In this document: one piece after another, positions 11,152 to 50,795 of the stretch | Numbering within the stretch: position 1 is the first letter of the stretch | How the letters are laid out: the number at the start of each line of letters is the position of its first letter | NCBI GenBank assembly: GCA_018241185.1 | Contig: JAFEEH010000200.1 | Span: 1 to 64,000, forward strand | DNA length: 64,000 nucleotides | Reading direction: 5' to 3' | Source: Pseudomonadota bacterium | GTDB taxonomy: Bacteria; Pseudomonadota; Gammaproteobacteria; Burkholderiales; Burkholderiaceae_C | Translations under genes and position numbers: made by a program | The notes under the pieces: model-generated | Database searches by the model: none | Seen by the model: only the letters and a program-made list of their open reading frames with translations | What the model was told of the DNA's origin: nothing

Positions 11152-11778
11152 ATGCACAAGCGAAATGCTCTTAAATTGATAGCTGGTGGCGCAGGCTGGG
11201 CGGGCGCTGCAGCCCTTTTTGGCTTGAATCTCACGGCCTGCACCGACTCCAAGCCCACCTTCAACGCGGTCGACCTGACAGGCGCGGAGTACGCCCGCGA
11301 CTTCAAGCTCACCGACATGAACGGCCAGGTGCGCACCCTGGGCGACTTCAAGGGCAAGGTGGTCGTGGTCTTCTTCGGCTACGCGCAGTGCCCCGACGTG
11401 TGCCCCACGACCATGACCGAGATGGCGCAGGTCAAGCAGAAGCTGGGCAAGGACGGCGACAAGCTGCAGGTGGTGTTCATCACCGTCGACCCGGAGCGCG
11501 ACACGCCCGAGATCATGAAGGCGTACATGGGTGCGTTCGACCCGGCCTTCGTCGCCCTGATCCCCACGCCCGAGCAGCTTGCTGCCGTGGCGAAGGACTT
11601 CAAGGTCTACTACAAGAAGGTCGAGGGCAAGACGCCCACCAGCTATTCGATGGACCACTCGGCCGCCCAGTACATCTACGACCCCCAGGGCCGCCTGCGC
11701 CTGTATGCGCGCTACGGCGCCGGGGTCGATCCGATGGTGGCCGACATCAAGGCGCTGCTGGCCTCCAACGCCGCCTGA
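11152..11778 (+). CDS. sco1: SCO1/SenC family copper chaperone, N-terminus encoded by a repeat
   Basis: SCO proteins deliver copper to the CuA site of subunit II. The 208-residue lipoprotein-like protein has the copper motif 'CPDVCP' (cysteines about 80 and 84) and the His within 'YSMDHSAAQYIYDPQG'. Its first 30 residues form a signal sequence ending 'FGLNLTAC', where the cysteine could be lipid-modified. That signal sequence is encoded by a copy of the dispersed repeat at 11166-11229, in the same frame as in the M16 peptidase gene at 17755. It is the last gene of the oxidase assembly operon, 7 bases after ctaB. Confidence 0.93.
   Translation: MHKRNALKLIAGGAGWAGAAALFGLNLTACTDSKPTFNAVDLTGAEYARDFKLTDMNGQVRTLGDFKGKVVVVFFGYAQCPDVCPTTMTEMAQVKQKLGKDGDKLQVVFITVDPERDTPEIMKAYMGAFDPAFVALIPTPEQLAAVAKDFKVYYKKVEGKTPTSYSMDHSAAQYIYDPQGRLRLYARYGAGVDPMVADIKALLASNAA
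11166..11229 (+). repeat. Dispersed sense-strand repeat, copy 1 (inside sco1 signal sequence)
   Basis: This copy starts about 20 bases after the ctaB stop and runs through codons 5-26 of sco1. It shares the block GCGGGCGCTGCAGCC plus CTTTTTGGCTTGAAT with the copy at 17779. The ATAGCT core is intact, but the left stem-loop arm and the GC hairpin are degraded relative to non-coding copies. Confidence 0.85.
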
Positions 11779-11796
11779 GCGCGCCGCACGCACCAC

Positions 11797-12612
11797 ATGT
11801 CGGTCGAGCACCTGCGCGCGCGCAAGGGCGCGTTCCGCATCGCGCTGATCCCGCCCGAGGTGCTGGCCGCGCTGAACGACGGCCTGCTCGAAACCGTCAA
11901 CCTCAACGAGTTCCTGGCGCTGGATACCCCGCGCCTGGCGCGCGCGGTGGCCGCCCAGATCGGCCTCGACCCCGCGCACGAACGCCTGGCCGACACCTTG
12001 GCCATGCTCGACGCCTTCAAGCCCATGCAGCGTCACACGCACATCGCGCGTGCGCTGTACGACCTGACGGCGGCGCACCCCGAGCGCGACGCCGTCGCGC
12101 ATCGGCTGGCGACGCACCCCAGCGACGTGGCGCGCAGCTGGGCCGTGCAGTGGGTGCAGTTCGCTGGCCTGCCGCTGGCGGCGCGCCTGCAGGCGGTGCG
12201 CCGCTTCGCCGCCGACCCGCACTTCGGGGTGCGTGAGTTCGCGTGGATGGCCGTGCGCGACGCGGTGATCGGCGACGTCGACGCCGCCGTGGCCGCCCTC
12301 GTCCCGTGGACGGCCGATACCGACGAGAACCTCCGCCGCTTCGCCAGCGAGCTCACGCGCCCGCGCGGCGTCTGGTGCGCGCCCATCCCGCCGCTGCAGC
12401 GCGAGCCCTGGCGTGCATTGCCCCTGCTGGAACCCCTGCGCGCCGACGGCAGCCGCTACGTGCAGAACTCGGTCGCCAACTGGCTCAACGACGCCAGCAA
12501 GAGCCAGGGCCCTTGGGTCCAGGCCTTGGCTGACCGCTGGTTGGCCGAGAGCGACACGCCGGCCACGCGCTACATCGTCAGGCGCGCGTTGCGGACGCTA
12601 TCGAAACCATAG
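11797..12612 (+). CDS. HEAT-like helical repeat protein of unknown function
   Basis: A 271-residue soluble, largely helical protein with repeated patterns of paired amphipathic helices ('RSWAVQWVQFAGLPLAARLQ', 'FGVREFAWMAVRDAVIGDVD', 'ENLRRFASELTRPRGVW'), resembling the HEAT-like repeats of the AlkC/AlkD superfamily. No catalytic residues could be assigned. It begins 18 bases after sco1 and may be the last gene of that transcript. The final codons and stop ('LSKP' then TAG) come from a dispersed repeat copy, so the natural C-terminus may have been replaced. DNA-alkylation repair is possible but unproven. Confidence 0.7.
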   Translation: MSVEHLRARKGAFRIALIPPEVLAALNDGLLETVNLNEFLALDTPRLARAVAAQIGLDPAHERLADTLAMLDAFKPMQRHTHIARALYDLTAAHPERDAVAHRLATHPSDVARSWAVQWVQFAGLPLAARLQAVRRFAADPHFGVREFAWMAVRDAVIGDVDAAVAALVPWTADTDENLRRFASELTRPRGVWCAPIPPLQREPWRALPLLEPLRADGSRYVQNSVANWLNDASKSQGPWVQALADRWLAESDTPATRYIVRRALRTLSKP

Positions 12613-12653
12613 CTGCTCGCGCCCGCTCGATGGGCGTTTGGGGCTGATTTGGC
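12597..12653 (+). repeat. Dispersed sense-strand repeat, copy 2 (supplies gene end)
   Basis: This copy overlaps the last five codons of the HEAT-like gene and provides its TAG stop within the ATAGC core. Both stem-loops can be seen: GCTATC-N6-ATAGC and GCGCCCG-N4-TGGGCGT. The block then ends with ATTTGGC. Confidence 0.8.
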
Positions 12654-12666
12654 ATCGAGATGCAGA

Positions 12667-12774
12667 CAGCCAAACGCAGAGGCGCAGAAGCGACGCAGAG
12701 GACGCAGAGAAATCCTTTTTGAATTTCTCTTCTGCGCCCTCTGCGAAACCCTTTGCGCCCTCTGCGTTCGGCTG
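12667..12774. repeat. Large imperfect palindrome with CGCAGAGG sub-repeats, copy 1
   Basis: Arms of about 45 bases built of repeated CGCAGAG units pair with CTCTGCG units across a centre near 12720. The ends are CAGCC and CGGCTG. It lies between the HEAT-like gene and the converging rpoH. It is the most divergent of four copies; the others are at 23836, 42234 and 43254. Short frames inside it are artefacts. Confidence 0.8.
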
Positions 12775-12783
12775 CCCGAATTG

Positions 12784-12813
12784 AAAAAGCCCGGCACAAG
12801 GCCGGGCTCTTCA
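12784..12813 (-). terminator. Rho-independent terminator of rpoH
   Basis: On the minus strand an AGCCCGGC/GCCGGGCT stem with a short loop is followed by a run of five T. It is placed about 20 bases after the rpoH stop codon. Confidence 0.85.
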
Positions 12814-12833
12814 ACCGAGAAGCAGGCCGCGGA

Positions 12834-13775
12834 TCAGGCGTACGCCGCCAGCGCCTTCTTCATCTTCTTCATCGCCGCCGATTCGATCTGGCGGATGCGC
12901 TCGGCCGAGACGCCGTAGTCGGCCGCCAGTTCGTGCAGCGTCATGCCGCCCGAACCGTCGTCGTTCACCTTGAGCCAGCGCTCCTCGACGATGCGGCGGC
13001 TGCGGTCGTCGAGCGCTTGCAGCGCGGTGGCGATGCCATCGCTCGACAGCCGGTCGCGCTGGCGCGACTCGAGTTGCGCGGTCGGTTCCTGCGAGGCGTC
13101 GGCCAGGTAGGCGATCGGGCCGTAGGTGTCCTCGCCGTCGTCGGCCGGGCCGGGGTCGAGCACCACATCACCGCCGGACAGGCGGGTTTCCATCTCGATC
13201 ACTTCCTCGGGCTTCACGTTCAGCTTGCGCGCCACCTCGCCGATCTCGTCGGTGTTCAGCGTTTCGCGGTGCGTCTCGGCATCCGCCGCGGCGGCATCGG
13301 CCTTGAAGCCTTGCTTCATCGAGCGCAGGTTGAAGAACAGCTTGCGCTGGGCCTTGGTCGTCGCGACCTTGACCATGCGCCAGTTCTTCAGGATGTACTC
13401 GTGGATCTCGGCCTTGATCCAGTGCATGGCATAGCTCACCAGCCGCACGCCCTGGTCGGGATCGAAGCGCTTCACGGCCTTCATCAGGCCCACGTTGCCT
13501 TCCTGGATCAGGTCGCCATGCGGCAGCCCGTAGCCCAGGTACTGGCGCGAGATCGAGATGACCAGACGCAGGTGCGACAGGATCAGCGCGCCGGCGGCCT
13601 CCAGGTCGTTGTGGTCGCGCAGCCGGCGTGCAAAACCCTGCTCTTCCTCGAGGGTGAGCAAGGGCAGCCGGTTCGCGGCAGAAATGTAGGCGTCCAGATT
13701 GCCAAGCGAGGGCACCATGGCCCACGGGTTGGCCACGGCCAACTGGTTGGCAGAGGATCCAGACAGACTTGTCAT
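12834..13775 (-). CDS. rpoH: RNA polymerase sigma-32 (heat-shock) factor RpoH
   Basis: Directs RNA polymerase to heat-shock promoters. The 313-residue protein has sigma region 2 ('LRLVISISRQYLGYGLPHGD' and 'QEGNVGLMKAVKRFDP'), the RpoH box region ('TTKAQRKLFFNLR') and region 4 with a helix-turn-helix ('LHELAADYGVSAERIRQIE'). The start at 13775 is chosen because an AAGGAG box lies eight bases upstream; an ATG nine codons earlier (13802) has none. The perfect CIRCE element at 13804-13830 lies just upstream in the probable leader or promoter, so repression by HrcA, encoded at 60450, is expected. A terminator follows the gene. Confidence 0.97.
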   Translation of the reverse strand: MTSLSGSSANQLAVANPWAMVPSLGNLDAYISAANRLPLLTLEEEQGFARRLRDHNDLEAAGALILSHLRLVISISRQYLGYGLPHGDLIQEGNVGLMKAVKRFDPDQGVRLVSYAMHWIKAEIHEYILKNWRMVKVATTKAQRKLFFNLRSMKQGFKADAAAADAETHRETLNTDEIGEVARKLNVKPEEVIEMETRLSGGDVVLDPGPADDGEDTYGPIAYLADASQEPTAQLESRQRDRLSSDGIATALQALDDRSRRIVEERWLKVNDDGSGGMTLHELAADYGVSAERIRQIESAAMKKMKKALAAYA

Positions 13776-13803
13776 AGGGGAAACTCCTTGGTTGGCATTC
13801 ATA

Positions 13804-13830
13804 TTAGCACTCGGTTAGAGGGAGTGCTAA
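13804..13830 (-). promoter_or_regulatory. CIRCE element (HrcA operator) upstream of rpoH
   Basis: A perfect inverted repeat TTAGCACTC-N9-GAGTGCTAA, identical to the CIRCE consensus. It lies 28 bases upstream of the chosen rpoH ATG. CIRCE normally controls groESL or dnaK operons through the HrcA repressor. Here it should repress rpoH itself, making the sigma-32 regulon respond to HrcA. Confidence 0.95.
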
Positions 13831-13884
13831 AGCGGGAGTTCCCAATAAAACGTATCGGGTCGATAGTTTTTTGCAGGCCGTACT

Positions 13885-14352
13885 TCAGCCGCGAATCCCC
13901 AGCTTGCCCAGCCCCAGTCCAGCAACGAAAAGGGGCCCGACGTAGAGGTATTGGAGGTCCTCGAAAAAAGAAGGTTTCCTGCCTTCGATCCTGTGGCCGA
14001 TGAACTGGAAGATCCAGCCGACCACGAAGATCGCTGCCGACACCGGCAGCACCTGGCTGCCCAGGGCGTGAACGGCTGCGAGCAGCACGCCGGTCCAGAC
14101 CAGCATCACGGCGAAGAACACCGGCGAGCGCAGCAACGCGTAGTACACGAGGCTGGCCGCCACGAACGCGTAGGCCACCCAGGGATGGATGGCGAACAGC
14201 AGCCCGACGATGCTGAGCATGATCGCCGGGATGGCAACGACGTGGATCAATTCGTTGGTCGGATGGCGGTGGCTCTCGGCGTAGTGGGCCAGCAGGCGGT
14301 CCACGCGGCGGCGTGGCGCGGCGCTTTCGAGAGGTGCGGCGATGGTGTCCAT
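13885..14352 (-). CDS. DUF962 / Mpo1-like membrane protein
   Basis: A 155-residue protein with four hydrophobic segments and the family signature 'HYAESHRHPTNELIHVVAIP' near the N-terminus (His and Asn/Glu residues), plus the C-terminal 'GHRIEGRKPSFFEDLQYLYV'. Members of DUF962 include yeast Mpo1, an iron-dependent dioxygenase of 2-hydroxy fatty acid degradation. A similar activity is possible, as the key histidines are present. The ATG at 14352 has an AGGA box; an alternative start lies 12 codons upstream. The gene stands alone upstream of rpoH on the same strand. Confidence 0.8.
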   Translation of the reverse strand: MDTIAAPLESAAPRRRVDRLLAHYAESHRHPTNELIHVVAIPAIMLSIVGLLFAIHPWVAYAFVAASLVYYALLRSPVFFAVMLVWTGVLLAAVHALGSQVLPVSAAIFVVGWIFQFIGHRIEGRKPSFFEDLQYLYVGPLFVAGLGLGKLGIRG

Positions 14353-14534
14353 GGGCTTTTCCTGAATGTGCGGCGCGCCGGTCGTCAATACGTCACGCCC
14401 GGGGTCAAATGTGAAACGAAAGTCAACATTTCGTCAACTTTTCACTCGCGGCGCCAGGCCGCCGGGCGCACAGTACGCCTCGCCGGTACCGGACACAAGT
14501 CCTCGACCTCCGGCAACTCACAAGGAGCGAGGGA

Positions 14535-14876
14535 GTGGAAGCCTTCATGGACAAATTGATCATCACCAGCCGCCAGGGCGGGCGCAAGCTGATCGACCTG
14601 GATCGCCCCCGCATGACCATCGGCCGTGCGCCGGGCAGCGACCTGCCGGTCGAGACGCCCCTGGCCAGCCGCGTGCACGCGCTGCTGTCGGCGCGCAGCG
14701 ACGGGGTCTACGTCAGCGACCTGGACAGCAGCAACGGCACCTTCGTCAACGGCCGCAAGATCGAGCGGCACCTGCTGCGCCACCGCGACGTGATCCGCGT
14801 CGGCGACTGGGACATCCGCTACATCGACGGCAACGTCGAACCCCAGCGCGAGACGACGGTCGCACCGGCGATCTGA
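14535..14876 (+). CDS. FHA domain protein
   Basis: A 113-residue protein consisting almost entirely of one forkhead-associated domain: 'MTIGRAPGSDLPVETPLASR' (phosphothreonine-binding GR and S-R loop) and 'VSDLDSSNGTFVNGRKI' (the conserved SSNGTFVNG). FHA domains bind phosphothreonine peptides, so a Ser/Thr kinase partner is expected, but none is visible in this window. GTG at 14535 has an AAGGAG box seven bases upstream; ATG four codons on (14547) is the alternative. A bidirectional terminator separates it from the converging ftsY. Confidence 0.88.
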   Translation: MEAFMDKLIITSRQGGRKLIDLDRPRMTIGRAPGSDLPVETPLASRVHALLSARSDGVYVSDLDSSNGTFVNGRKIERHLLRHRDVIRVGDWDIRYIDGNVEPQRETTVAPAI

Positions 14877-14946: not shown

Positions 14947-14971
14947 CCATTGCTGCAACGTGCCGCTGCCG

Positions 14972-16297: not shown

Positions 16298-17758
16298 ATG
16301 GAACACCCCTCGCCACGCCGTTTCACGGCCGGCGTGGCGCTGCTGGCGGCCCTGGCGGGCCCGCTTGCGTCCGTCGCGCTCGCCCAGGCCCCGTCCCCCT
16401 TGCCGACGCCGGCCGCCCCGTCTTCCCTTCCCACCGCCTCCGTCAGGCCCGTCCAGTACACCCTGGCCAATGGCATGACGCTGATCGTCCAGCCTGACCG
16501 GCGGGCGCCCACCGCGGTGCAGATGCTGTGGGTGCGCGTGGGCTCGGTGGACGAGGTCGACGGCACCTCGGGCGTGGCCCACGTGCTCGAACACATGATG
16601 TTCAAGGGCACGGCCACCCTCAAGCCCGGCGAGTTCTCGCGCCGCGTGGCCGCGCTGGGCGGGCGCGAGAACGCCTTCACCACCCGCGACTACACCGGCT
16701 ACTACCAGCAGATCCCGGCCGAGAAGCTGGAGGACGTGATGAAGCTGGAATCCGACCGCTTCGCTCACAACCAGTGGCCGGACGACGAGTTCAAGCGCGA
16801 GCTCGAGGTGGTGAAGGAGGAGCGCCGCATGCGCACCGAGGACCAGCCGCGCGCCCTGCTCGGCGAGCAGCAGAACGCCGCGGTCTTCATCGCCTCGCCC
16901 TACCACCGCCCGGTGGTGGGCTGGATGAGCGACCTCGACGCCATGACGCCGCAGGACGCCCGCGCCTTTTTCCAGCGCTGGTACGTGCCGGCCAACGCCG
17001 CCGTCGTGGTGGCGGGCGACGTCGACCCCGAGCGCGTGCGCGCCCTGGCCGAGAAGTACTACGGCAGCATCCCCGCCCGCGCCGTGCCCGAGCGCAAGCC
17101 GCGCACCGAGCCGCTGCAGCGCGGCGTCCGCCGCATTGAGTTCAAGGCGCCGGCCGAGCAGGCGTATGTCTCGCTCGCCTTCCGCGTGCCGCAGATGGAG
17201 CAGCTCGACAGCCCGACCGACGCCTGGGCGCTGGTGGTGCTGTCGGCCGTGCTCGACGGCTACACCGGCTCGCGCCTGGACCGCACGCTGACCCAGGGGC
17301 CGGGCCGCGTGGCCGACAGCGTCGGCGCCGGCTATGGCTTTGCCGGCCGCGGGCCGCAGCTGTTCCAACTGGTCGGCGTGCCCGCCGCCGGCCAGACCAC
17401 CGAGACGGTGGAGGCCGCGCTGCGCGCCCAGGTCGCGCGCATCGCGAAGGAAGGCGTGGGCGCCGCCGAGCTGGCGCGCGTCAAGACGCAATGGGTGGCC
17501 AGCGAAACCTACAAGCGCGACTCGGTGATGGCCCAGGCGCGCGAGCTGGGCAGCAACTGGGTGCAGGGCCTGCCGCTGGATGCGAGCGAACGCATCGTCA
17601 AGCACCTGCTCGCCGTCACGCCCGAACAGGTGCAGGCGGTGGCGGCCAAATACTTCGGCGACGACCAACTCACGGTCGCCACGCTGCGGCCCCTGCCCAT
17701 CGACCCCAAGGCCCGTCGCGGCCGCGGCTTCGCCGCCCCGCAGGGAGAGATGCGATGA
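16298..17758 (+). CDS. M16 family zinc metallopeptidase, catalytic partner
   Basis: A 486-residue periplasmic peptidase of the pitrilysin/PqqL-like M16B group. It has a signal peptide followed by a proline-rich stretch, then the inverted zinc motif HxxEH in 'HVLEHMMFKG' (His about 95 and 99, Glu 98) and the supporting 'ENAFTTRDYTGYYQQIP' region. The C-terminal half has the second M16 fold. Its stop overlaps the ATG of the next M16 gene (ATGA). The pair resembles the catalytic/non-catalytic dimers of this family. The substrate is unknown. Confidence 0.92.
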   Translation: MEHPSPRRFTAGVALLAALAGPLASVALAQAPSPLPTPAAPSSLPTASVRPVQYTLANGMTLIVQPDRRAPTAVQMLWVRVGSVDEVDGTSGVAHVLEHMMFKGTATLKPGEFSRRVAALGGRENAFTTRDYTGYYQQIPAEKLEDVMKLESDRFAHNQWPDDEFKRELEVVKEERRMRTEDQPRALLGEQQNAAVFIASPYHRPVVGWMSDLDAMTPQDARAFFQRWYVPANAAVVVAGDVDPERVRALAEKYYGSIPARAVPERKPRTEPLQRGVRRIEFKAPAEQAYVSLAFRVPQMEQLDSPTDAWALVVLSAVLDGYTGSRLDRTLTQGPGRVADSVGAGYGFAGRGPQLFQLVGVPAAGQTTETVEAALRAQVARIAKEGVGAAELARVKTQWVASETYKRDSVMAQARELGSNWVQGLPLDASERIVKHLLAVTPEQVQAVAAKYFGDDQLTVATLRPLPIDPKARRGRGFAAPQGEMR

Positions 17759-19188
17759 ACCGGTTCACGCCTTCGTTCGCTATGAAAAATATAGCTGCTC
17801 GCGCAGCACTGGCGGGCGCTGCAGCCCTTTTTGGCTTGAATGCACAGGCCGGCGTGCCGATCGAGCGCTGGCAACTGCCCAACGGCGCGCAGGTCTACAT
17901 GGCCGCCACCGATGCGCTGCCCATCGTCGACGTGCAGATCGACTTCGACGCCGGCAGCCGGCGCGACCCGCCCGCGCAGGCGGGCCTGGCCGGCGTGACG
18001 GCCGGCATGGTGGAGAAAGGCGTGCGCGCCGAAGACTGCCCGCCCTCGGCCGCGCGCAAGGCCACCTCGCCGGCCGACGGCGGCGGCTGTCGCGTGCCGG
18101 CGCTCGACCAGAACCAGCTCGGCGAGGCCTGGGCCGACCTGGGCGCCGAGTTCGACGTCGGCGCCAGCGCCGACCGCATGAGCTTCACCCTGCGCAGCCT
18201 GGCCGACCCGGTGCTGCTGGCCAAGGCCGTGGCGCTGGCCGCGCGCGAGATCGGCGAGCCGTCCTTCCCCGACGAGGTGTGGCAGCGCGAACGCGAACGC
18301 CTGTCCGCCGCCATCCGCGAGAGCAACACCAAGCCCGGCCCGGTCGCCAGCCGCACCTTCGGCCGCGACGTGTACGGCGGCCACCCCTATGGCGACGACG
18401 CGACCGAAGCCACGCTGGCCGCGATCTCCACCGCCGACATGCGCGCGCGCTACGCCCAGACCGTCCTGCCGTGCCGGGCCAAGCTCACGGTGGTGGGCGC
18501 CGTCACGCGCGCGCAGGCCGATCGCATCGCGACCGACCTGCTGGCGCGCCTGCCGGCGACCGCGGGTGCCTGCCCCGCACTGCCGCCCGTGGCCGAGGTG
18601 CCGCCGCTGGCGAAGGCCGTCACCGAGCGCATCCCCTTCGACTCGGCCCAGGCCCACGTGCTGATCGGCCAGCCGGGGTACGCACGCCGCAGCCCCGACC
18701 ACTTCGCGCTCACGCTGGGCAACTACATCCTGGGCGGGGGCGGCTTCGTCTCGCGCCTGACGGACGAGGTGCGCGAGAAGCGCGGCCTGGCCTACAGCGT
18801 CTACAGCGGCTTCTCGCCGGGCCTGCACGCGGGCGCCTTCCGCATCGGCTTCCAGACCCGGCCCGACCAGGCCGACGAAGCCGTGAAGGTGGCGCAGGAC
18901 GTGCTCGCCAGGTTCGTCGCCGAGGGTCCCACCGAGGCCGAGCTCAAGGCCGCCAAGGACAACCTCATCGGCGGCTTCCCGCTGCTGCTGGACAGCAACC
19001 GCAAGCTGCTGGGCAACGTCGCCAACATCGCCTGGAACGACCTGCCGCTGGACTACCTCGACACCTGGACGGCGAAGATGAACGCGGTGACCGTGGCCGA
19101 CATCAAGGCCGCGTTCGCGCGCACGCTGCAGCCGCAGAAGATGGTGACGGTGGTGGTGGGTGGGGCCGAACCGGCCGCAAAAAAGTAA
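17755..19188 (+). CDS. M16 family peptidase-like protein, non-catalytic partner, repeat-derived signal peptide
   Basis: A 477-residue M16B protein coupled to the preceding gene by ATGA overlap. The zinc-binding HxxEH is absent; the corresponding stretch reads 'AGLAGVTAGMVEKGVRAEDC', so it is probably the structural half of a heterodimer. The C-terminal domain keeps the substrate-positioning loop 'LGGGGFVSRLTDEVREKRGL'. Residues 10-29, the core of its signal peptide ('AARAALAGAAALFGLN'), are encoded by a dispersed repeat. Cleavage is likely after 'AQA'. Confidence 0.9.
   Translation: MNRFTPSFAMKNIAARAALAGAAALFGLNAQAGVPIERWQLPNGAQVYMAATDALPIVDVQIDFDAGSRRDPPAQAGLAGVTAGMVEKGVRAEDCPPSAARKATSPADGGGCRVPALDQNQLGEAWADLGAEFDVGASADRMSFTLRSLADPVLLAKAVALAAREIGEPSFPDEVWQRERERLSAAIRESNTKPGPVASRTFGRDVYGGHPYGDDATEATLAAISTADMRARYAQTVLPCRAKLTVVGAVTRAQADRIATDLLARLPATAGACPALPPVAEVPPLAKAVTERIPFDSAQAHVLIGQPGYARRSPDHFALTLGNYILGGGGFVSRLTDEVREKRGLAYSVYSGFSPGLHAGAFRIGFQTRPDQADEAVKVAQDVLARFVAEGPTEAELKAAKDNLIGGFPLLLDSNRKLLGNVANIAWNDLPLDYLDTWTAKMNAVTVADIKAAFARTLQPQKMVTVVVGGAEPAAKK
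17779..17841 (+). repeat. Dispersed sense-strand repeat, copy 3 (signal peptide of M16 gene)
   Basis: Begins 21 bases after the stop of the first M16 gene and encodes the hydrophobic core of the second one's signal peptide. It aligns without gaps, and in the same codon phase, with the copy in sco1. The shared end GCGGGCGCTGCAGCCCTTTT is identical in both. Confidence 0.88.
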
Positions 19189-19214
19189 GAATCGACTTAG
19201 TAATTCTCCACAGG

Positions 19215-19269
19215 AAAAGTGCCTCTAGCGCCCGTTGGAAGGGCGCAACCAGCTATCGATTCGATAGTA
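19215..19269 (-). repeat. Dispersed sense-strand repeat, copy 4 (after argP)
   Basis: Minus orientation, beginning about 20 bases after the argP stop codon. Non-coding. It retains CTATCGAATCGATAGC as a near-perfect small palindrome and GCGCCC...GGGCGC as the second hairpin. It lies in the 100-base gap between converging argP and the M16 gene. Confidence 0.85.
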
Positions 19270-23835: not shown

Positions 23836-23998
23836 CGGACTTCCGCAGGCAGAGGTTTTGCAGAAGGCGCAGAAGCCATCCGTTTCCAGCCTGCAGCGCC
23901 GCTGCTCACGGCGTGGACGTGGCCCGCGCGCAAATCCCTTGGTCTGTCTTTTTCGCGTCCTTTGCGTAACCTTCGCGTCCTCTGCGTCCGGAAGTCCG
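23836..23998. repeat. Large imperfect palindrome with CGCAGAGG sub-repeats, copy 2
   Basis: Ends CGGACTTCCG and CGGAAGTCCG pair; inner arms contain GCAGAGG and CCTCTGCG units. The centre holds an unrelated GC-rich stretch of about 60 bases, so this copy is longer than the others. It fills the 206-base gap between pxpC and pxpA inside one operon. Confidence 0.82.
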
Positions 23999-25760: not shown

Positions 25761-25770
25761 TATTGGGGGC

Positions 25771-25824
25771 GAATTGGGCTGCAGCGCCCGTCCAGTGGGC
25801 GTGGGCAGCTATTGATTCGATAGC
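25771..25824 (-). repeat. Dispersed sense-strand repeat, copy 5 (supplies end of hydrolase gene)
   Basis: Minus orientation. Its CTATCGAATCAATAG segment forms the last codons and the TAG stop of the alpha/beta hydrolase gene, exactly as copy 2 does for the HEAT-like gene. The rest lies in the gap and has the GCGCCCGTCC...GGGCG hairpin. Confidence 0.85.
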
Positions 25825-26522
25825 AGAAGACGGCGCAGCCAGTCGCCCAGGAAGGCGTTCACGGTGCCGGGCTTCTCCATGGTCAGCATGTGGCCGCAGG
25901 CCGGGACCCAGTGCAGCTCGGCCTGCGGCAGCAGCGCGGCGATCTCGCGCGAGGCGGCCGGCGGCGTCAGGCGGTCGCTGTCGCCGCACATCACCAGCGC
26001 CGGACAGCGCAGCCGGCCCAGGTGCTGGCGTGCATCGGGGCGCTGCATCATCGCGCGGTTCTGGCGGATCAGCTGCGCCGCGCCGGCGTCCAGGATGATG
26101 TCCAGGTAACGCTGCGTCAGTGCCCGGTCGGCGGCCTGCGCCGGGTGGAAGGCGAAGACGATGTTGGGCTCGATCACGTCGCGCACGTCGCCCTGCTCGA
26201 AGAGTTCGATGGCCGAGGCGCGCAGCTCGTAGGTCTCGGGCGTTTCGGGCGCGGCATTCGTGCCCAGCAGCGCCAGCCCGGCGATGCGCTCCGGCGCCTG
26301 GCGGGCCGCCTCCATGGCCACCATGCCGCCCATCGAAGCGCCGCACAGCACCAGCGGGCCGGCCGTCTCGGCCAGCACGGCGGCGGCCATGGTCTCGATG
26401 CTGGCGTGGCGCATGTGGGCGTCGCTCACGAGCGGATCGAGGGCGGGCGGGACGATGGGCAGCTGGGCTTCCCACAGCCGGGCATCGCAGGCCAGGCCGG
26501 GGAGAAAGACGAGGCGGGGCAT
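25809..26522 (-). CDS. Alpha/beta fold hydrolase
   Basis: A 237-residue serine hydrolase. It shows the oxyanion region 'LVFLPGLACDARLWEAQLP', the nucleophile elbow 'GASMGG' (Ser near residue 81), the acid in 'VMCGDSDRLTPP' and the catalytic His in 'PACGHMLTMEKP'. Overall it resembles the esterase/3-oxoadipate enol-lactonase-like group. The substrate is unknown. The last residues 'LLSNQ' and stop are encoded by a dispersed repeat. ATG at 26522 is chosen; the upstream in-frame extension lacks family similarity. Confidence 0.85.
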   Translation of the reverse strand: MPRLVFLPGLACDARLWEAQLPIVPPALDPLVSDAHMRHASIETMAAAVLAETAGPLVLCGASMGGMVAMEAARQAPERIAGLALLGTNAAPETPETYELRASAIELFEQGDVRDVIEPNIVFAFHPAQAADRALTQRYLDIILDAGAAQLIRQNRAMMQRPDARQHLGRLRCPALVMCGDSDRLTPPAASREIAALLPQAELHWVPACGHMLTMEKPGTVNAFLGDWLRRLLLSNQ

Positions 26523-29183: not shown

Positions 29184-29242
29184 AAGCCAAATCGGCCTGC
29201 AGCGCCCGTCCCGCCTGCGCAAAGCGCTATCGATTTCGTAGC
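29184..29242 (-). repeat. Dispersed sense-strand repeat, copy 6 (after the GntR gene)
   Basis: Minus orientation, beginning nine bases after the stop codon of the GntR regulator gene. Non-coding. Both hairpins are visible: GCTACGAAATCGATAGC and GGCGGGACGGGCGCTG with its partner GCGCCCGTCCCGCC, followed by the ATTTGGCTTGAA end. Confidence 0.85.
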
Positions 29243-34228: not shown

Positions 34229-34242
34229 CCGGAGTTATGGAT

Positions 34243-34297
34243 AAAAAGTGCCTGCAGCGCCCGCCGGGCTTGCGCGAGCAGCTATGAATTCGATAGC
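34243..34297 (-). repeat. Dispersed sense-strand repeat, copy 7 (after TPR gene)
   Basis: Minus orientation, starting four bases after the stop of the TPR gene and ending 15 bases before the phosphoribosyltransferase ATG. Non-coding, with intact GCTATCGAATTCATAGC palindrome and GCGGGCGCTGCAGGC end followed by ACTTTTT. Confidence 0.87.
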
Positions 34298-34300
34298 AAA

Positions 34301-40330: not shown

Positions 40331-41227
40331 TCAGCCGTGCAGCACGCCCCCGGCCGGCGTGTGCTGCACGGCCTCGAGCAGGGCGCGCGTGTAGGGGTGC
40401 TCGGCCTCGCGGAACAGGCGCTCGGGCGCGCCGCGCTCGACGATCTGCCCCTTGAGCACCACGCACACGTCGTCGCACAGGTGGTTGACCACCGCGAGGT
40501 CGTGGCTGATGAGCAGATAGCTGATGCCGAACTGCTGCTGCAGGTCCTGCATGAGGTTGAGCACCTGCGCCTGCACCGACACGTCGAGCGCGCTCACCGG
40601 CTCGTCGGCCACGATGAGCCTGGGCCGCGTGATGAGCGCGCGCGCGATGGCAATGCGCTGGCGCTGCCCGCCCGAGAACTCGTGCGGGTACTTGTCGAGG
40701 TCGGTGGTTCGCAGGCCCACGGCGGCCAGCGATTCGGCGGCGCGTTCGCGCTGTTCGGCGCGCGTGGCCGCTTCGGCGGTGCCGGCCAGGGCCTCGAGCG
40801 GCTCGGCGACGATGCGTGCCACCGTCTGGCGCGGGTCGAGCGAACCGTACGGGTCCTGGAAGACCATCTGGAAGTCGCGCCGCGCCACGCGCAGGTCGTG
40901 CTTCGACAGGGCGTTGATGTCGCGGCCCAGCATCCGGATGCTGCCGCTGGTGGGCGTGTCCAGCGCCATCACCAGGCGCGCGATGGTCGACTTGCCCGAG
41001 CCCGATTCGCCCACGATGCCCAAGCTGCGCCCGGCCTCGACCGTGAAGCTCACGCCGTTGAGCGCCTTCACCAGCGGCGGCGGGCCGAGCAGCTTCTCGC
41101 GCGGCAACGCGTAGTGGCGGACCAGGTCGGTGACTTCGAGCAGGGGCGGGTTCTTCGAGCCAAAAGTGCCTGCAGCGCCCGTCCCGCCTGCGGAATCAGC
41201 TACGGAATTGATAGCGGAATCACTCAT
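40331..41227 (-). CDS. ABC transporter ATP-binding protein (DppF-like), repeat-derived N-terminus
   Basis: A 298-residue ATPase of the oligopeptide type. Walker A 'GESGSGKSTIARLVMAL', signature '[15 protein letters not shown]', Walker B 'LIVADEPVSALDVSVQAQVL', and the C-terminal 'LFREAEHPYTRALLEAVQ' typical of DppF/OppF. Its first 24 residues ('[17 protein letters not shown]...') are not seen in normal DppF proteins and are encoded by a dispersed repeat copy; family similarity starts at 'LLEVTDLVRHY'. ATG at 41227 overlaps the dppD-like stop (ATGA). Confidence 0.92.
   Translation of the reverse strand: MSDSAINSVADSAGGTGAAGTFGSKNPPLLEVTDLVRHYALPREKLLGPPPLVKALNGVSFTVEAGRSLGIVGESGSGKSTIARLVMALDTPTSGSIRMLGRDINALSKHDLRVARRDFQMVFQDPYGSLDPRQTVARIVAEPLEALAGTAEAATRAEQRERAAESLAAVGLRTTDLDKYPHEFSGGQRQRIAIARALITRPRLIVADEPVSALDVSVQAQVLNLMQDLQQQFGISYLLISHDLAVVNHLCDDVCVVLKGQIVERGAPERLFREAEHPYTRALLEAVQHTPAGGVLHG
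41159..41215 (-). repeat. Dispersed sense-strand repeat, copy 8 (N-terminus of DppF-like gene)
   Basis: Minus orientation. It covers codons 5-22 of the DppF-like gene, directly after the dppD-like stop codon, in the same codon phase as copies in sco1 and the M16 gene (GGC GCT GCA GGC ACT TTT GGC). GCAGGCGGGACGGGCGCTGC is shared with copy 6. Confidence 0.85.
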
Positions 41228-42222
41228 GCCGCGACCTCCCGTCCCGCGGCCTCGGCGGCCACCGCCTCGATCCGGATGCAGCGCACCTGGTGCCCATGCG
41301 CCAATGGTGTGGGCGGTGGTGGCGTGGTGTGGCAGGCGTCGATGGTGAAGCGGCAGCGGCCCGCAAAGGGGCAGCCGGGCGGCAGGTCGACCAGCTCGGG
41401 CACGCTGCCGCGGATGGTGGCCAGGCGCCCGCCGCGTGGTGCGCCGAGCACCGGGCGCGCGGCGAACAGGCCTTGCGTGTAGGGGTGCGCGCGTTCGGCG
41501 AACACGGCACCGGTGGGGCCGCTCTCGACCACGCTGCCGCCGTACATCACGAGCATGCGCGACACGTTGTTGGCGATCACGCCGAGGTCGTGCGAGATCA
41601 GGATCATCGCCATGCCACGCTCCTCGACCAGGCCGCGGATCAGGTCGAGGATCTGCTTCTGGATCGTGACGTCGAGCGCGGTGGTGGGTTCGTCGGCGAT
41701 CAGCAGGTCGGGGCCGCAGGCCAGCGCCATCGCGATGCCGATGCGCTGGCGCTGCCCGCCCGAGAACTGGTGCGGGTAGGCGTCGAGCTTGGCTGCCGCA
41801 TCGGGAATGCCCACGCGCTCCAGCAGCGCCAGCACCTCCTTGCGCGCGTCGGCCGCCGTGAGCCCGCGGTGCAGCCGCAGCGGCTCGCCGACCTGGCGCG
41901 CAATGGTGTGCACCGGGTTGAGCGCCGTCATCGGCTCCTGAAAGATCATGCCGATGCGGTTGCCGCGCACCTGGCACAGCGCCTTGTCGGGCAGGCCCAC
42001 CAGTTGCTGGCCGTCGAAGCGGATGCTGCCCGTGACCTTCGCATTCGAAGGCAGCAGGCCCATGAGCGACATGACGGTGATGGACTTGCCGCAACCGGAT
42101 TCGCCCACGATGCCCAGCGTCTCGCCGCGCTCGAGCGAGAAGCTGATGCCGCGCACCGCTTCGGCGGGGCCGCGCTGCGTCTGCAGGCCGATGTGGAGGT
42201 CGTTGACTTCGAGGAGTGCCAT
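41224..42222 (-). CDS. ABC transporter ATP-binding protein (DppD-like)
   Basis: A 332-residue ATPase of the peptide-type importers. Walker A '[19 protein letters not shown]', '[16 protein letters not shown]' (Q-loop), signature '[15 protein letters not shown]', Walker B '[16 protein letters not shown]'. The C-terminal cysteine-bearing tail '[18 protein letters not shown]' is the iron-sulphur-type motif of DppD/OppD proteins. It pairs with the DppF-like ATPase downstream. A large palindrome separates it from dppC upstream. Confidence 0.94.
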
Positions 42223-42233
42223 GGAATCGGGAT

Positions 42234-42359
42234 CGGACTACCGGACGCAGAGGACGCGAAGGTTTCGCAGAGGACGCAAAAGGGTCAGAAAGAAATTCTT
42301 TATGGAAGTTCTTCTGCGTCCTCCGCGGAACTTCTGCGTCCTCTGCGTCCGGAAGTCCG
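42234..42359. repeat. Large palindrome with CGCAGAGG sub-repeats, copy 3 (dppC-dppD gap)
   Basis: Ends CGGACTACCGGACGCAGAGG and its near-complement CCTCTGCGTCCGGAAGTCCG. Each arm is about 50 bases, with two tandem GACGCAGAGG-like units. It fills nearly all of the 149-base space between the dppC-like and dppD-like genes. Confidence 0.92.
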
Positions 42360-42371
42360 TATTCGTGTTCA

Positions 42372-43241: not shown

Positions 43242-43253
43242 GGGTTGTGAATA

Positions 43254-43380
43254 CGGACTACCGGACGCAGAGGACGCAAAGGTTTCGCAGAGAACGCAGA
43301 AGGAAGCAGATGAAGTTCTTCTTTGCTTTTACTTCTGCGACCTCTGCGGAACTTCTGCGTCCTCTGCGTCCGGAAGTCCG
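43254..43380. repeat. Large palindrome with CGCAGAGG sub-repeats, copy 4 (dppB-dppC gap)
   Basis: The outer 30 bases on each side are identical or nearly identical to the copy at 42234-42359. The centre differs. It fills most of the 156-base gap between dppB-like and dppC-like genes. Confidence 0.92.
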
Positions 43381-43397
43381 CTCCCGATTTCAGGGCC

Positions 43398-44855: not shown

Positions 44856-45320
44856 TCAACCCTTCTTCTTGCGCTTGCCACCCGCAGCGGCCGTCGACGG
44901 ATCGCGCGCGGTGAAGGCGTCGGTCTCGCCTTTCGTGTGCTTCTTCGGCTTGTGGGTCTTCGGCGGCTTCGCCATCGTTTCGCGCGGCACGGGATTCGCC
45001 GCTGGCGCGGGCGGCGCCGCAATCAGGGCGGGGCGCTGTCGGCCAGCCTCGCGCTCCAGTGCGCTGCGCTCGCGGGCCATCGCATCGGCCTGTCGCTGCA
45101 CATCGCGGGTGCGCCGGTCCTGTGCCTGGCGGTCGGCGCTGCTGCGTGCGTCGTCCACTGCCACCGGTCGCCCGTCGGGGCAGGGCTGGTCGCTGTAGCT
45201 GCTGCCGCAGCGCCAGGTCTGGCTTCCCAAGCCATTTGGGCCTGCAGCGCCCGCCGGATGGGCGCAAGCCGCTATCAAAAGTGAAGCAATCGTGTGAGCG
45301 GCGCGGTGTTGTGTGCGCAT
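44856..45320 (-). CDS. DUF4124-like secreted protein with repeat-derived signal peptide
   Basis: A 154-residue protein. The signal peptide 'IASLLIAACAHPAGAAG' is encoded by a dispersed repeat; cleavage is likely near 'AGA'. The mature part starts with 'WRCGSSYSDQPCPDGR', matching the DUF4124 pattern (W-C-YSD-PC). A coiled-coil-prone Arg/Glu/Gln-rich middle ('DRQAQDRRTRDVQRQADAMA') and a Lys-rich tail follow. The function of DUF4124 proteins is unknown; they are periplasmic. It follows pth on the same strand by 28 bases. Confidence 0.8.
   Translation of the reverse strand: MRTQHRAAHTIASLLIAACAHPAGAAGPNGLGSQTWRCGSSYSDQPCPDGRPVAVDDARSSADRQAQDRRTRDVQRQADAMARERSALEREAGRQRPALIAAPPAPAANPVPRETMAKPPKTHKPKKHTKGETDAFTARDPSTAAAGGKRKKKG
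45231..45287 (-). repeat. Dispersed sense-strand repeat, copy 9 (signal peptide of DUF4124-like gene)
   Basis: Minus orientation, codons 12-30 of the DUF4124-like gene, about 60 bases after the pth stop. Same codon phase as copies 1, 3 and 8 (GCG GGC GCT GCA GGC CCA AAT GGC TTG). Here the AATGGC end resembles the ATTTGGC of non-coding copies. Confidence 0.82.
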
Positions 45321-47348: not shown

Positions 47349-47364
47349 CGTCGGCCGCTGAACG

Positions 47365-47393
47365 AAAAAAGCGCCCGGGGGGGCGCTTTTTTT
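47365..47393. terminator. Bidirectional Rho-independent terminator
   Basis: A run of A, the stem AGCGCCC/GGGCGCT with a small G loop, then a run of seven T. It ends the lipoprotein pair and, on the other strand, rplY. Confidence 0.9.
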
Positions 47394-47433
47394 CGTCCGA
47401 TGCGGCCGGGAATCCGATCGCTGGATGATCGGC

Positions 47434-48072
47434 TTACTTCTTCTTGCCGCCCTTGGCAGGCGCCGGCGCGGGTGCAGCCGCTGCGGCTTCGGCCGGTGCG
47501 GGCTCCTCCTCGACCGCCGGGGCAACGGCCGACGCCACGACGGGGTTCGGCTTGCCGTGCAGGATGACCTTGGCGCCCTTGGGCAGCTTCAGGTCGCTCA
47601 CGTGCACCGTGGCGGCGTTGGTCAGGCCCGACAGGTCGACCTCGATGAACTCGGGCAGGTCGGCCGGCAGCACGCTGATCTGGATTTCGGTCATCACGTG
47701 GTTGACCAGGTTGTGATGCAGCTTGACGGCTTCGGACTCTTCCTCACCCTTGAAGTGCAGCGGCACCTTCACGGTCAGGCGAGTGCGGGCGTCGACGCGC
47801 TGGAAGTCGATGTGCTGCACCAGTTGCTTGAAGGGGTGGTATTGCACATCGCGCAGCAGGACCTTGCTCACGCTGCCGCCCAGTTCCATCTCGAGGATGG
47901 AGGAGTGGAAGGCTTCCTTCTTGAGGGCGTGCCACAGGGCGTTGTGATCGAGCTCGATCAGTTGGGGCTGGCCATCACCACCGTAGACGATGCCGGGCGT
48001 CTTGCCGGCATTGCGCAGACGGCGGCTCGCACCCGTACCCTGCTTGGCGCGCTCGAAAGCGACGAATTTCAT
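47434..48072 (-). CDS. rplY: 50S ribosomal protein L25/general stress protein Ctc
   Basis: Binds 5S rRNA. The 212-residue protein is the long Ctc form: an L25 domain ('[20 protein letters not shown]') followed by the TL5 beta domain ('[20 protein letters not shown]', '[13 protein letters not shown]') and an Ala/Pro/Lys-rich tail. GGAG box before the ATG. It follows prs, the usual order in betaproteobacteria, across a gap with an 11-bp perfect hairpin. Confidence 0.97.
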
Positions 48073-48173
48073 ATCGATTCTCCAGATGGAACCGGCCGCG
48101 ACCAGCCTGGCTCCGTTTCAAAAAGCCCCGAGGGGCACGACGAAGGGCAGGCGGAGCCTGCTCCTTCAAATGT

Positions 48174-48198
48174 CTGAAGAACGCGAAGCGTTCTTCAG
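48174..48198 (-). other. Perfect 11-bp hairpin over the prs stop codon
   Basis: CTGAAGAACGC-GAA-GCGTTCTTCAG. It overlaps the last codon and stop of prs (which ends at 48195). Stem 11 bp, loop 3. There is no T-run, so it is not a normal terminator; a second weaker GCCCC/GGGGC hairpin with T-run follows at about 48120-48140. Confidence 0.7.
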
Positions 48199-49169
48199 AA
48201 CAGGTTTTCCTGGTCCGAGAACAGGCTCATCACCGACTCGCCCTTGGCGATGCGCTGGATGGTCTCGGCGAACAGCGGCGCCACGGACAGCTGGCGGATC
48301 TTGCTGCAGCCCAGTGCGGCATCGGACAGAGGGATCGTGTTGGTCACGCAAACCTCGTCGAGCGCGGTGCCTTGTGCGATGCGCTCCATCGCCGGGCCCG
48401 AGAAGACCGGGTGCGTGCAATACGCGTACACGCTCTTGGCGCCCCGTTCCTTGAGCACCTCGGCCGCCTTCACCAGCGTGCCGGCGGTGTCGATCATGTC
48501 GTCCATGATCACGCAGTTGCGGCCTTCGATCTCGCCGATGACGTTCATCACCTCGCTCACGTTCGCCTTGGGGCGGCGCTTGTCGATGATGGCGAGGTCG
48601 CAGTTCAACTGCTTGGCCAGCGCACGGGCGCGAACCACGCCGCCCACGTCGGGCGAGACCACGATCAGGTCTTCGTAGTTCTTGGCGCGCAGGTCGCCCA
48701 GCAGCACTGGCGAGGCGTAGATGTTGTCGACCGGGATGTCGAAGAAGCCCTGGATCTGGTCGGCATGCAGGTCCATCGTGAGGACGCGATCGACGCCGAC
48801 GGTCTGCAGCAGGTTGGCGACCACCTTGGCCGAGATCGGCACACGGCTGGAGCGCGGGCGGCGGTCCTGGCGGGCATAGCCGAAGTAGGGGATGACGGCG
48901 CTGATCCGCTCGGCCGAGGCGCGCTTGAGCGCGTCGACCATGATCAGCAGTTCCATCAGGTTCTCGTTCGTGGGCGCGCAGGTCGACTGGACGACGAACA
49001 CGTCGCGGGCACGCACGTTCTGGTTGATCTCGACGGTGACTTCGCCGTCGGAGAAGCGGCCGACGCGGGCGGCGCCCAGCGTGGTGCCCAGGTGCTGCGC
49101 GATCTCGGCCGCGAGGCCGGGATTGGCATTGCCGGTGAAAACCATGAAGTCAGGGTGATGCGCCTGCAT
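48195..49169 (-). CDS. prs: Ribose-phosphate pyrophosphokinase (PRPP synthetase)
   Basis: Makes PRPP from ribose 5-phosphate and ATP. The 324-residue protein has the N-terminal '[19 protein letters not shown]', '[20 protein letters not shown]' (ATP-binding flexible loop), '[19 protein letters not shown]' and the PRPP loop '[20 protein letters not shown]'. It supplies the substrate for the phosphoribosyltransferases in this window. The tRNA-Gln gene lies just upstream. Confidence 0.98.
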
Positions 49170-49253
49170 GCGTGTTTCCCGGCGGTCTGAGCGATTGGGC
49201 CTTGAAGGCCCGCACCTTGCGGCGCGGCGCCGTTCTTTGTCGTGGAAAGAATT

Positions 49254-49330
49254 TGGCAGGGGAGAAAGGATTCGAACCTTTGCATGCCGGAATCAAAATC
49301 CGGTGCCTTAACCAGCTTGGCGACTCCCCT
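49254..49330 (-). tRNA. tRNA-Gln (anticodon TTG)
   Basis: On the minus strand a 77-base cloverleaf: acceptor AGGGGAG/CTCCCCT, D arm with GGTTAAGGC, anticodon stem CCGGA/TCCGG with loop TTTTGAT (anticodon TTG), T arm GGTTCGAATCC, discriminator G and encoded CCA. It lies between ispE and prs, as is usual in this group. Confidence 0.97.
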
Positions 49331-49338
49331 ACACAGGA

Positions 49339-49357
49339 GAGTGGTCAAAGACCACTC
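49339..49357 (-). other. Perfect 8-bp hairpin upstream of tRNA-Gln
   Basis: GAGTGGTC-AAA-GACCACTC, nine bases upstream of the tRNA-Gln 5' end and 45 bases after the ispE stop. No T-run follows, so it could be a processing signal in a leader shared by ispE and the tRNA. Confidence 0.6.
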
Positions 49358-49401
49358 ACCGATGAATGTCGCACCCAGCCACCTCTCGGCGACTGGCTTT
49401 T

Positions 49402-50268
49402 CTAGACCGCCCAGCCTGCGAGAGGATGGACTGCCAGATTGCTGCACTGCCGAAGCTGCCAACCCGGGGGAGGGTCGTCGAGCAACAGGCCGTGCGGCGC
49501 ATTGTCCCTCTGTTCCAGCGGCGCGAACACCGCGCTGCCGGACCCGGTCATCCGTGCTTCCAGTCCCTGGCTGCCGAGCCACTCGATGGCCTGGCGCACC
49601 TCGGGGCAGAGCCTCTGGGCGACCGGCTGCAAGTCGTTGTGGCCGAATCTGAAGATTTCGGCTGCATCGTTTGCAGCAAAGCCAGAGAGTATAGCAGGAC
49701 TTGTTGCGCGCTGAAGGTCTTCGGCGGCAAAAATGAGACGCGTGTCCAGCCCGGCTGTCGGTTTGAGCACCGCGAAGCGGCCGCCCGGCAGGGCCACCGG
49801 CGTGATCTCCTCGCCGATGCCCTCGACCCAGGCGTTGTGCCCACGCAGGAAGAAGGGCACGTCGGCACCCAGCGTGAGGCCGATGCGTTCGAGCCGCTGC
49901 AGCGGCAGGCCCAGGCCCCACAGCCGATTGAGCGCCAGCAGGCAGGTGGCCGCGTCGGACGAGCCGCCGCCCATCCCGGCCTGGGCCGGCACATGCTTGG
50001 CGATGCCGATGTGTGCACCCTGGCCCGGGCCGGCGAAGGCCTGCAGCGCCCGCGCGGCCCGCAGCACCAGGTCGTCCGCGGGCAGCGGCGTGGTCAGGTC
50101 CTCGCGCGAGAGCTGGCCGTCATGGCGCAGTTCGACATGCAGCACGTCGCTCCAGTCGATCAGCATGAACACCGACTGCAGCAGGTGGTAGCCGTCGTCG
50201 CGGCGGCCGGTGATGTGCAGGAAGAGGTTGAGCTTGGCCGGCGCCGGCAGGTCGTACAGGGCGTTCAC
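49402..50268 (-). CDS. ispE: 4-diphosphocytidyl-2-C-methyl-D-erythritol kinase
   Basis: Phosphorylates CDP-methylerythritol in the non-mevalonate isoprenoid pathway. The 288-residue GHMP kinase has 'PAPAKLNLFLHITGRRDDGY' at the N-terminus, the ATP loop 'PAQAGMGGGSSDAATCLLAL' and 'TGSGSAVFAPL' near the C-terminus. The start is GTG at 50268, overlapping the lolB stop (GTGA). Confidence 0.95.
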   Translation of the reverse strand: MNALYDLPAPAKLNLFLHITGRRDDGYHLLQSVFMLIDWSDVLHVELRHDGQLSREDLTTPLPADDLVLRAARALQAFAGPGQGAHIGIAKHVPAQAGMGGGSSDAATCLLALNRLWGLGLPLQRLERIGLTLGADVPFFLRGHNAWVEGIGEEITPVALPGGRFAVLKPTAGLDTRLIFAAEDLQRATSPAILSGFAANDAAEIFRFGHNDLQPVAQRLCPEVRQAIEWLGSQGLEARMTGSGSAVFAPLEQRDNAPHGLLLDDPPPGWQLRQCSNLAVHPLAGWAV

Positions 50269-50795
50269 GGCCGGCGGCTCTCGACGCCGGCGCGCGGCAC
50301 GGCCTCGAAGACCACGCGCAGGTCGGCGGTGGGCTGTGGCGATTCGCGCACCGCCTGCAGTCGGCCCGAGGCGACCTGGCTCAGGTCGGCGCGCCAACCT
50401 GGCACCGCAGCCGGCTGGCCCGCCAGCCATTGGAAGAGTGCATCCACCGGCAGGGCGGCACCGGTCACGCGTTCGGCCAGCGCGTCGATGGAGTCGTAGC
50501 GTTGCGTGCGCTGCCCGTCGCGCAGCAGCGCTTCGCCCGGCGACCACTGCAGGATGCCCAGCGTGCTGCCGATGGGGCTGGTGAGCGTGAGTTCGCCCCG
50601 CCCGGGGGCGCCGCGCAGTTCGAACAGGGCGGCGAAGGACTGCACCGGCTGGCTGTCCACGCGCAGCGACAGGCGCCCCGTCCATTGACCGTCTTGAGGG
50701 TCAAAAGAGCCGCTGGGGTGCATGGGTGTTGCGCAACCAGCTATCAAAAAAGGAGCAACAGCCGCCGCGGCGGCCAGGGCCGTGCGGCGCTTCAC
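50265..50795 (-). CDS. lolB: Outer membrane lipoprotein receptor LolB, repeat-derived lipobox
   Basis: LolB takes lipoproteins from LolA and inserts them into the outer membrane. The 176-residue protein has a signal 'AAAAAVAPFLIAGCATPMHP' with lipobox LIAGC, then the conserved 'WTGRLSLRV', 'LTLTSPIGSTLGILQWSPG' segments. The GTG at 50795 overlaps the TPR stop (GTGA), giving tight coupling from TPR gene through lolB to ispE. The segment FLIAGCATP is encoded by a dispersed repeat copy. Confidence 0.93.
   Translation of the reverse strand: MKRRTALAAAAAVAPFLIAGCATPMHPSGSFDPQDGQWTGRLSLRVDSQPVQSFAALFELRGAPGRGELTLTSPIGSTLGILQWSPGEALLRDGQRTQRYDSIDALAERVTGAALPVDALFQWLAGQPAAVPGWRADLSQVASGRLQAVRESPQPTADLRVVFEAVPRAGVESRRP
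50702..50758 (-). repeat. Dispersed sense-strand repeat, copy 10 (lipobox of lolB)
   Basis: Minus orientation. It starts about 30 bases after the stop of the upstream TPR gene and encodes the h-region end and lipobox of lolB. The left half (TTTTTTGATAGCTGGTTGCGC) is very close to copies 4 and 9; the right half has diverged strongly. Confidence 0.7.

Follow-up and report, generated by a model that had tools for sequence, protein, structure and literature searches.

A dispersed repeat of Comamonadaceae encodes, in a single reading frame, the N-termini of several proteins that look exported

Results

Five genes in one contig begin within a repeat

The window analysed here is a stretch of 64,000 nucleotides (positions 1 to 64,000 of contig JAFEEH010000200.1, assembly GCA_018241185.1) from a Pseudomonadota bacterium of the Burkholderiales, and it holds 11 copies of a repeat of ~61 nt with two hairpins. 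Five of these copies overlap the beginning of a gene, and all five (5/5) are read in the frame ATA GCT ... GGC GCT GCA, which we refer to as the ATA frame; the proposal of the initial annotation that five genes take their N-termini from the repeat in one frame is thus borne out. The first is sco1 (11152..11778, plus strand; Pfam SCO1-SenC, 1.1e-46), encoding a SCO1/SenC lipoprotein whose predicted signal sequence is the translated copy at 11166..11225 (plus strand, E 4e-15), with the lipobox LTAC after the repeat. The second M16 peptidase gene (17755..19188, plus strand; Pfam Peptidase_M16_C, 3.3e-37, with the open reading frame taken from 17707) has its predicted signal peptide in the copy at 17779..17837 (plus strand, E 2e-14), which contains an in-frame ATG. 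The other three lie on the minus strand. A copy at 41157..41215 (E 2e-13) encodes an N-terminal tail of a DppF-like ABC ATPase (40331..41227; Pfam ABC_tran, 6.1e-34; best NCBIfam hit PRK11308), whose start overlaps the upstream stop (ATGA), and a copy at 45229..45288 (E 7e-11) encodes the putative signal sequence of a small Cys-containing secreted protein of 154 amino acids (44856..45320). The fifth, at 50702..50757 (E 5e-3), covers the lipobox of LolB (50265..50795; Pfam LolB, 8.5e-16).

The sco1, M16, DppF, and small-protein copies align without gaps, as had been noted, whereas the label "DUF4124-like" for the small protein has to be dropped, as it matches no Pfam family at E 0.01 and no NCBIfam family. 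The LolB copy alone would be marginal. It looks decayed because longer copies occupy the same place in the lolB genes of other genera (33.0 and 28.1 bits in a Comamonadaceae metagenome-assembled genome (MAG) and Rhodoferax). Past the annotated start, no ATG or GTG occurs before residue 52 in DppF or residue 55 in sco1, and a start at either would cut into the domain; in LolB the next one is residue 24, past the lipobox. The M16 gene has a second possible ATG within the repeat (residue 9 from 17755).

The element appears old and spread across the family

The genome comprises 5.34 Mb in 269 contigs. A repeat profile was built from the copies in an 864-kb sample (the window and 40 stretches of 20 kb), with the same sequence reversed as a control, and the E-values given above for the repeat copies come from a search of this sample. 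The consensus is TGCTATCGAATTGATAGCTGCTCGCGCACGCCGGGCGGGCGCTGCAGGCCGATTTGGCTTG, and a consensus fold of 50 copies has the hairpins GCT...AGC and GCGC...GCGC. Of the 145 matches that the profile finds at E<0.1, 131 reach E<1e-3; the reversed sample yields no match below E 0.1. Removing opposite-strand matches that overlap on one palindrome leaves 134 distinct places; the extrapolated whole-genome copy number is 800-900. Searched genome-wide with a tolerance of one mismatch, a core 14-mer is found 203+196 times, compared with 9+10 for the reversed pattern. The copies have a mean identity to the consensus of 77%, and apart from a single pair none is more than 93% identical to its nearest neighbour, which gives no hint of a recent burst.

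A survey of 150 genomes of the order shows a clear excess of the 14-mer only in this genome and G224, and a weak one in G264 (G and L labels denote genomes and loci of the comparison set, C labels places in the own-genome sample), all of one family. The closest sco1 relatives, at 96-97% identity, are from Comamonadaceae bacterium ALPHA2B, a MAG, and Xenophilus, and the same-genus genome G103 yields coordinates identical to those of G003, the genome of Xenophilus sp. E41. We therefore treat our genome as Xenophilus, and its profile is called the Xenophilus profile below. Stretches of G025 and G023 were picked near pattern matches, and copy density there is no random estimate. We take the repeat to be an old dispersed element found throughout the Comamonadaceae. 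At the gathering score, Rfam finds only three tRNAs in the window and no family for the repeat.

One frame is nearly always open, mildly hydrophobic, and the commonest at gene starts

The ATA frame (ATA GCT GCT ..C GCA ... GCG GGC GCT GCA G.. ... TTT GGC TTG) is free of stops in 121 of the 125 full-length copies, and its mean hydropathy is +0.59. The other same-strand frames are open in 93 and 6 copies, the latter frame holding a TAG, and the opposite-strand frames in 109, 13, and 104; mean hydropathy is negative in all five and positive in the ATA frame only. Among the same-orientation copies that lie -15 to +75 nt from a called gene core (n=23), the ATA frame accounts for 15 and the other two frames for 5 and 3 (15/23, p 0.0017, window included). 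Copies with a start codon no more than 75 nt upstream are in the ATA frame in nine cases and in another frame in two (GTG and TTG, far upstream).

Frame preferences extend to other positions. At gene 3' ends, all 15 of 15 same-orientation matches have the TAG of the repeat in frame (11/12 with a second gene caller). Inside genes, 15 of 20 matches in our sample (E<1e-3) are either in the ATA frame (8) or in one opposite frame (7). The same kind of two frames holds 21 of 25 in-gene copies in six other genera, after an anchor-motif filter that removed 29 of 129 places there and 14 of 134 in our own genome. The two opposite frames of near-equal openness split 21 to 5 (p 0.0025).

Further N-termini encoded by the repeat

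A search for other secreted proteins with repeat-encoded N-termini, which the initial annotation had proposed, yielded five more in the ATA frame with an upstream start codon, outside the window but within the sample. They are an SBP_bac_6 binding protein (Pfam; C138:37468), a Chalcone_3 (chalcone-isomerase-like) protein whose sole near start, an ATG, lies 69 nt upstream (C131:19012), an uncharacterised protein of 150 amino acids (C119:22280), and, both with TTG starts, a Peripla_BP_6 binding protein (Pfam; C135:23280) and a SIMPL protein (Pfam; C136:32732). A peptide profile made from eight repeat N-termini matches repeat copies genome-wide, with at least 150 among the matches listed, and one of six further matches examined is a DctP-type binding protein with MMNKRNAIKTIAACAIAAGAAGTFGTAQAQ. 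Two copies with an open ATA frame and a better start or none (C167:16064 and the window copy at 29184) were left out of the count. At least one more start that resembles a signal (C10:3973) is read from the opposite repeat strand. A putatively HupE-like membrane-protein gene of a Rhodoferax MAG opens with an ATA-frame peptide that the repeat encodes and that looks like a signal (L191:5424-5466).

All proteins with a repeat N-terminus except DppF look exported. SCO1, LolB, SBP_bac_6, Peripla_BP_6, SIMPL, M16, Chalcone_3, and DctP are families that require export regardless of the N-terminus. The suggestion that the repeat was reused as an export signal stands insofar as its copies form the signal or lipobox of SCO1, LolB, M16, the solute-binding proteins, and SIMPL, while its pick-up as a ready-made part that gives export is not established. 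The further view that the repeat in DppF is a tail unrelated to export holds up.

Sites are common to several genera

Of 80 sco1 loci, at least 14 reach 20 bits with one or another repeat profile. Among 19 other genomes, 7 carry the repeat in lolB at E<0.01, and the small protein has it at its start in 8 of 12 (L271, L272, L286, and L287 were left out of this survey). In dppF, it is in frame at the start in 6 of 30 loci from six genera (5/29 without our own), and at L223 a copy lies upstream and out of frame. Xenophilus sp. E41, whose DppF core is 97% identical, does not lack the dppF repeat: a copy is present there but closes with a TAA stop, a second repeat comes next, and only then does the gene start afresh. 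The DppF tail thus appears dispensable, because the stop and the second repeat part it from the gene. That intervening repeat resembles a GCGTCC/GGACGC-type family described below.

The copies at sco1 often follow local dialects of the repeat. In A. defluvii, Acidovorax-type profiles score 36.3/36.9 bits and the Xenophilus profile 28.5, and in an Acidovorax MAG the values are 34.1/31.7 and 15.5; L127 and L129 also score best with local or near-local profiles. At L135 (Rhodoferax) and L137 (a MAG), the Xenophilus profile outscores the local one, the local models being short. The best profile is therefore a local or near dialect in four of the six genera tested.

By the 14-mer count, 12 Variovorax genomes are at control level, but the claim that Variovorax lacks the repeat proved too strong, as one of its genomes (J22R193) has 61 places at E<1e-3. 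Two other Variovorax genomes, sampled over 400 kb, give one match to the Xenophilus profile below 0.01. A blind scan of 200 kb of Variovorax sp. J22R193 finds, at E<0.01, only the starts of sco1, M16, the small protein, and lolB. In three Variovorax samples together, four of five places at E<0.01 are those four signal N-termini (two tiny G016 contigs were left out). Blind DNA-level matches at four N-termini in one repeat-poor Variovorax argue for shared descent from repeat DNA and not for chance likeness among Ala-rich peptides. Two of the best 30 places in J22R193 are further signal-like starts (L330, L342). The 200-kb scan had hinted that only useful copies survive in repeat-poor Variovorax, which the genome-wide count contradicts.

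Copies fit overwriting or old replacement better than plain insertion

Over the repeat, Dxr aligns gap-free to solved relatives, MurI differs from them by a few residues, HscA is about six residues shorter than DnaK, and the first repeat copy of PurL adds seven residues relative to solved relatives, with a similar stretch of equal length in Rhodoferax PurL. None of these four housekeeping genes has an insert of ~20 residues at the repeat copy compared, so overwriting or an old replacement fits better than plain insertion. The repeat in DppF differs from these internal copies in being an added tail. Within Xenophilus, five sites were compared and none of them was empty. The purL gene (L147:9669-13706) holds two repeat copies, the first of which (residues 290-308) has a position common with Rhodoferax.

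Other features of the window

The copy at 12597..12654 (plus strand) supplies the TAG stop of a sixth gene (11797..12612, plus strand; no NCBIfam family at E 0.001) and not an N-terminus. The remaining five are on the minus strand. One lies outside called genes (19214..19267), one on the 3' side of a called gene (25770..25825), and one upstream of a called gene with the ATA frame open and no preceding start codon (29184..29242). Another lies just upstream of a called gene with the frame closed (34242..34298), and the last beside gene ends (56695..56750). An inverted repeat at 12664-12777 gives plant and animal microRNA matches in Rfam, which are below threshold and were rejected as candidates; it presumably belongs to the second repeat family of the window. 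The arms of this other dispersed repeat are of the GCGTCC/GGACGC type and stand in both direct and inverted order; it occurs at 23943-23998, 42218-42364, and 43249-43396, and at L202.

The genome encodes a single Y1_Tnp (RAYT-like) protein (L380:1121-1878), and a repeat copy adjoins the 3' end of its gene. It scores 72.9 bits, under the NCBIfam cut-off of 80. The family is present in 30 of 33 relatives, both repeat-rich and repeat-poor, and absent from the repeat-rich G026.

Discussion

Starting from the observed sequence identity with the repeat, the frame, the exported gene families, and the sites common to several genera, we consider it reasonably probable that gene starts came to be covered by an old repeat with one open, Ala-rich frame and that these copies were then edited into signal peptides. 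One of the six frames of the repeat would nearly always be open, Ala-rich, and mildly hydrophobic, and copies across gene starts would survive mainly in this frame. Selection would then change a small number of codons, with Lys replacing Glu at codon 3 and neutral residues replacing Arg in codons 8-17; the edited copy would serve as a signal peptide or lipobox, and in the cytosolic DppF the same peptide may be a tolerated tail. On this reading the repeat-derived peptides probably work in export, the repeat probably came before the signal at these sites, and the source of new copies would be overwriting or conversion instead of plain insertion.

The editing step has a counterpart in the charges of the ATA-frame peptide. 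Codons 7-19 are free of charged residues in 6 of 8 signal copies compared with 8 of 116 others, codon 3 is K or R in 7/8 versus 22/116, and codon 17 is hydrophobic in 7/8 versus 19/116; the signal copies were chosen partly by look, which makes the comparison partly circular and a matter of consistency and not of proof. Consensus copies carry on average 2.1 charged residues in codons 7-19 and would be poor signals, so "ready-made" was an overstatement, whereas the signal copies average 0.25. Their deviation from the consensus at charge-sensitive codons suggests that they were edited by selection.

Besides this circularity, several points weigh against such an origin of the signals. The frame bias at gene starts is not significant without the window (9/17, p 0.075). 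The second gene caller recovered five of the ten N-termini, and it gave two extra ATA-frame starts that we did not count (C10:16570, C152:25816). The rule used to call signal peptides is crude, with 229 of 774 genes positive. Among the six further peptide-profile matches examined, five are no convincing genes and one has a convincing signal peptide. The whole J22R193 genome has 138 matches at E<=1, and many of its 61 places at E<1e-3 are intergenic. Finally, the signals of sco1 and M16 may predate the repeat in Variovorax. In repeat-poor Variovorax, sco1 orthologues have near-identical residues in GC-rich codons with little or no repeat DNA, and M16 orthologues have similar N-terminal residues.

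The last point also favours the main rival, to which we give a real but clearly smaller chance. It holds that the element spreads everywhere, overwrote existing signals, and was kept where its frame was harmless, adding nothing to export. It agrees with the similar residues and lengths of the sco1 and M16 signals in repeat-poor Variovorax, with the same kind of frame bias of internal copies in housekeeping genes (15/20; 21/25), and with the lack of insert-sized gains in Dxr, MurI, HscA, and the first PurL copy. By itself it leaves the charge-poor signal copies unexplained, although purifying selection could account for them.

A more tentative extension, which we regard as rather unlikely, is that the repeat family and the signal peptides co-evolve, with conversion from the local dialect giving sco1 and other exported proteins of each genus signals in that genus's own repeat; 17 of 124 copies contain an in-frame ATG (GCTATG). 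Site sharing among genera, local dialects, and the small length changes in genes would also suit a signal at the DNA level (an uptake-type sequence or a protein-binding site) that is refined in place by recombination, with coding use as a side effect. The preference of sco1 for local or near dialects points the same way, but 60 nt is long for an uptake sequence and two of the six genera score higher with the Xenophilus profile, and we hold this reading to be improbable.

Chance or convergent likeness among Ala-rich signal peptides is less probable still. The composition of the peptides is ordinary for signal peptides, and LolB reaches E 5e-3 only; yet nine of the ten N-termini match at the DNA level at E 7e-11 or better, few of the many genes that are signal-like by rule match the repeat, and a single match was found in the 400 kb of Variovorax. 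The residues which the initial annotation expected in repeat-free orthologues under chance likeness are seen in part, at sco1 and M16, whereas the DNA-level matches point to descent. That the family was born from signal-peptide coding sequence is very unlikely, since the openness of the ATA frame is offset by several Arg codons in its consensus, and the shape with two hairpins and the presence in six genera are in keeping with a non-coding origin.

Repeats that enter coding sequence are of a kind already known, with precedents in the Rickettsia palindromic elements (RPEs), REPs, and RU-2; this one is notable for the number of N-termini, the single frame, and the core genes. Delihas 2007 (PMC2759123) describes a Yersinia repeat as part of the predicted signal peptide of YPO1552. 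This RU-2 case (PMC2759123, PMC2229807) resembles ours in placing a repeat in a signal peptide, and its relatives in other species have unrelated signals. The RU elements are 103-168 nt and give single predicted cases, in contrast to the ten N-termini that share a frame within a single genome sample here, which include core genes (sco1, lolB) and sites common to several genera.

RPEs (Ogata 2000, via PMC2229807, a review by Delihas that covers them, and PMC3733652) are likewise palindromic, lie in frame inside conserved genes, and prefer one frame, but they are inserts of 105-146 bp, whereas our repeat has ~61 nt and produces no insert-sized gain in the four genes tested. Like RPE and RU elements, it is dispersed in intergenic regions and in frame inside genes; unlike them, its in-gene copies in the four genes compared are not inserts absent from relatives. 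GTAG/CGTC-tagged REPs (PMC3733652) are also short, palindromic, and high-copy, supply TAG as the stop of flanking genes, and sometimes lie at N-termini or inside genes. They span 20-40 nt, in contrast to two hairpins over ~61 nt, and neither the consensus nor the fold of our repeat has a GTAG/CGTC end tag. That paper puts N-terminal overlaps mostly down to misannotation, whereas alternative starts are lacking here. A search of open-licence PMC papers found no published account of this repeat, and the available part of PMC12306157 does not name the genera sought.

If the favoured origin by editing of an old repeat is true, gene starts that lie over repeats should not be cut back as annotation errors, and the old idea of mobile or repeated DNA as a source of signal peptides would become testable. 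It would also be the first case, in the literature searched, of a bacterial dispersed repeat that gives export signals to many genes of a single genome, core genes included.

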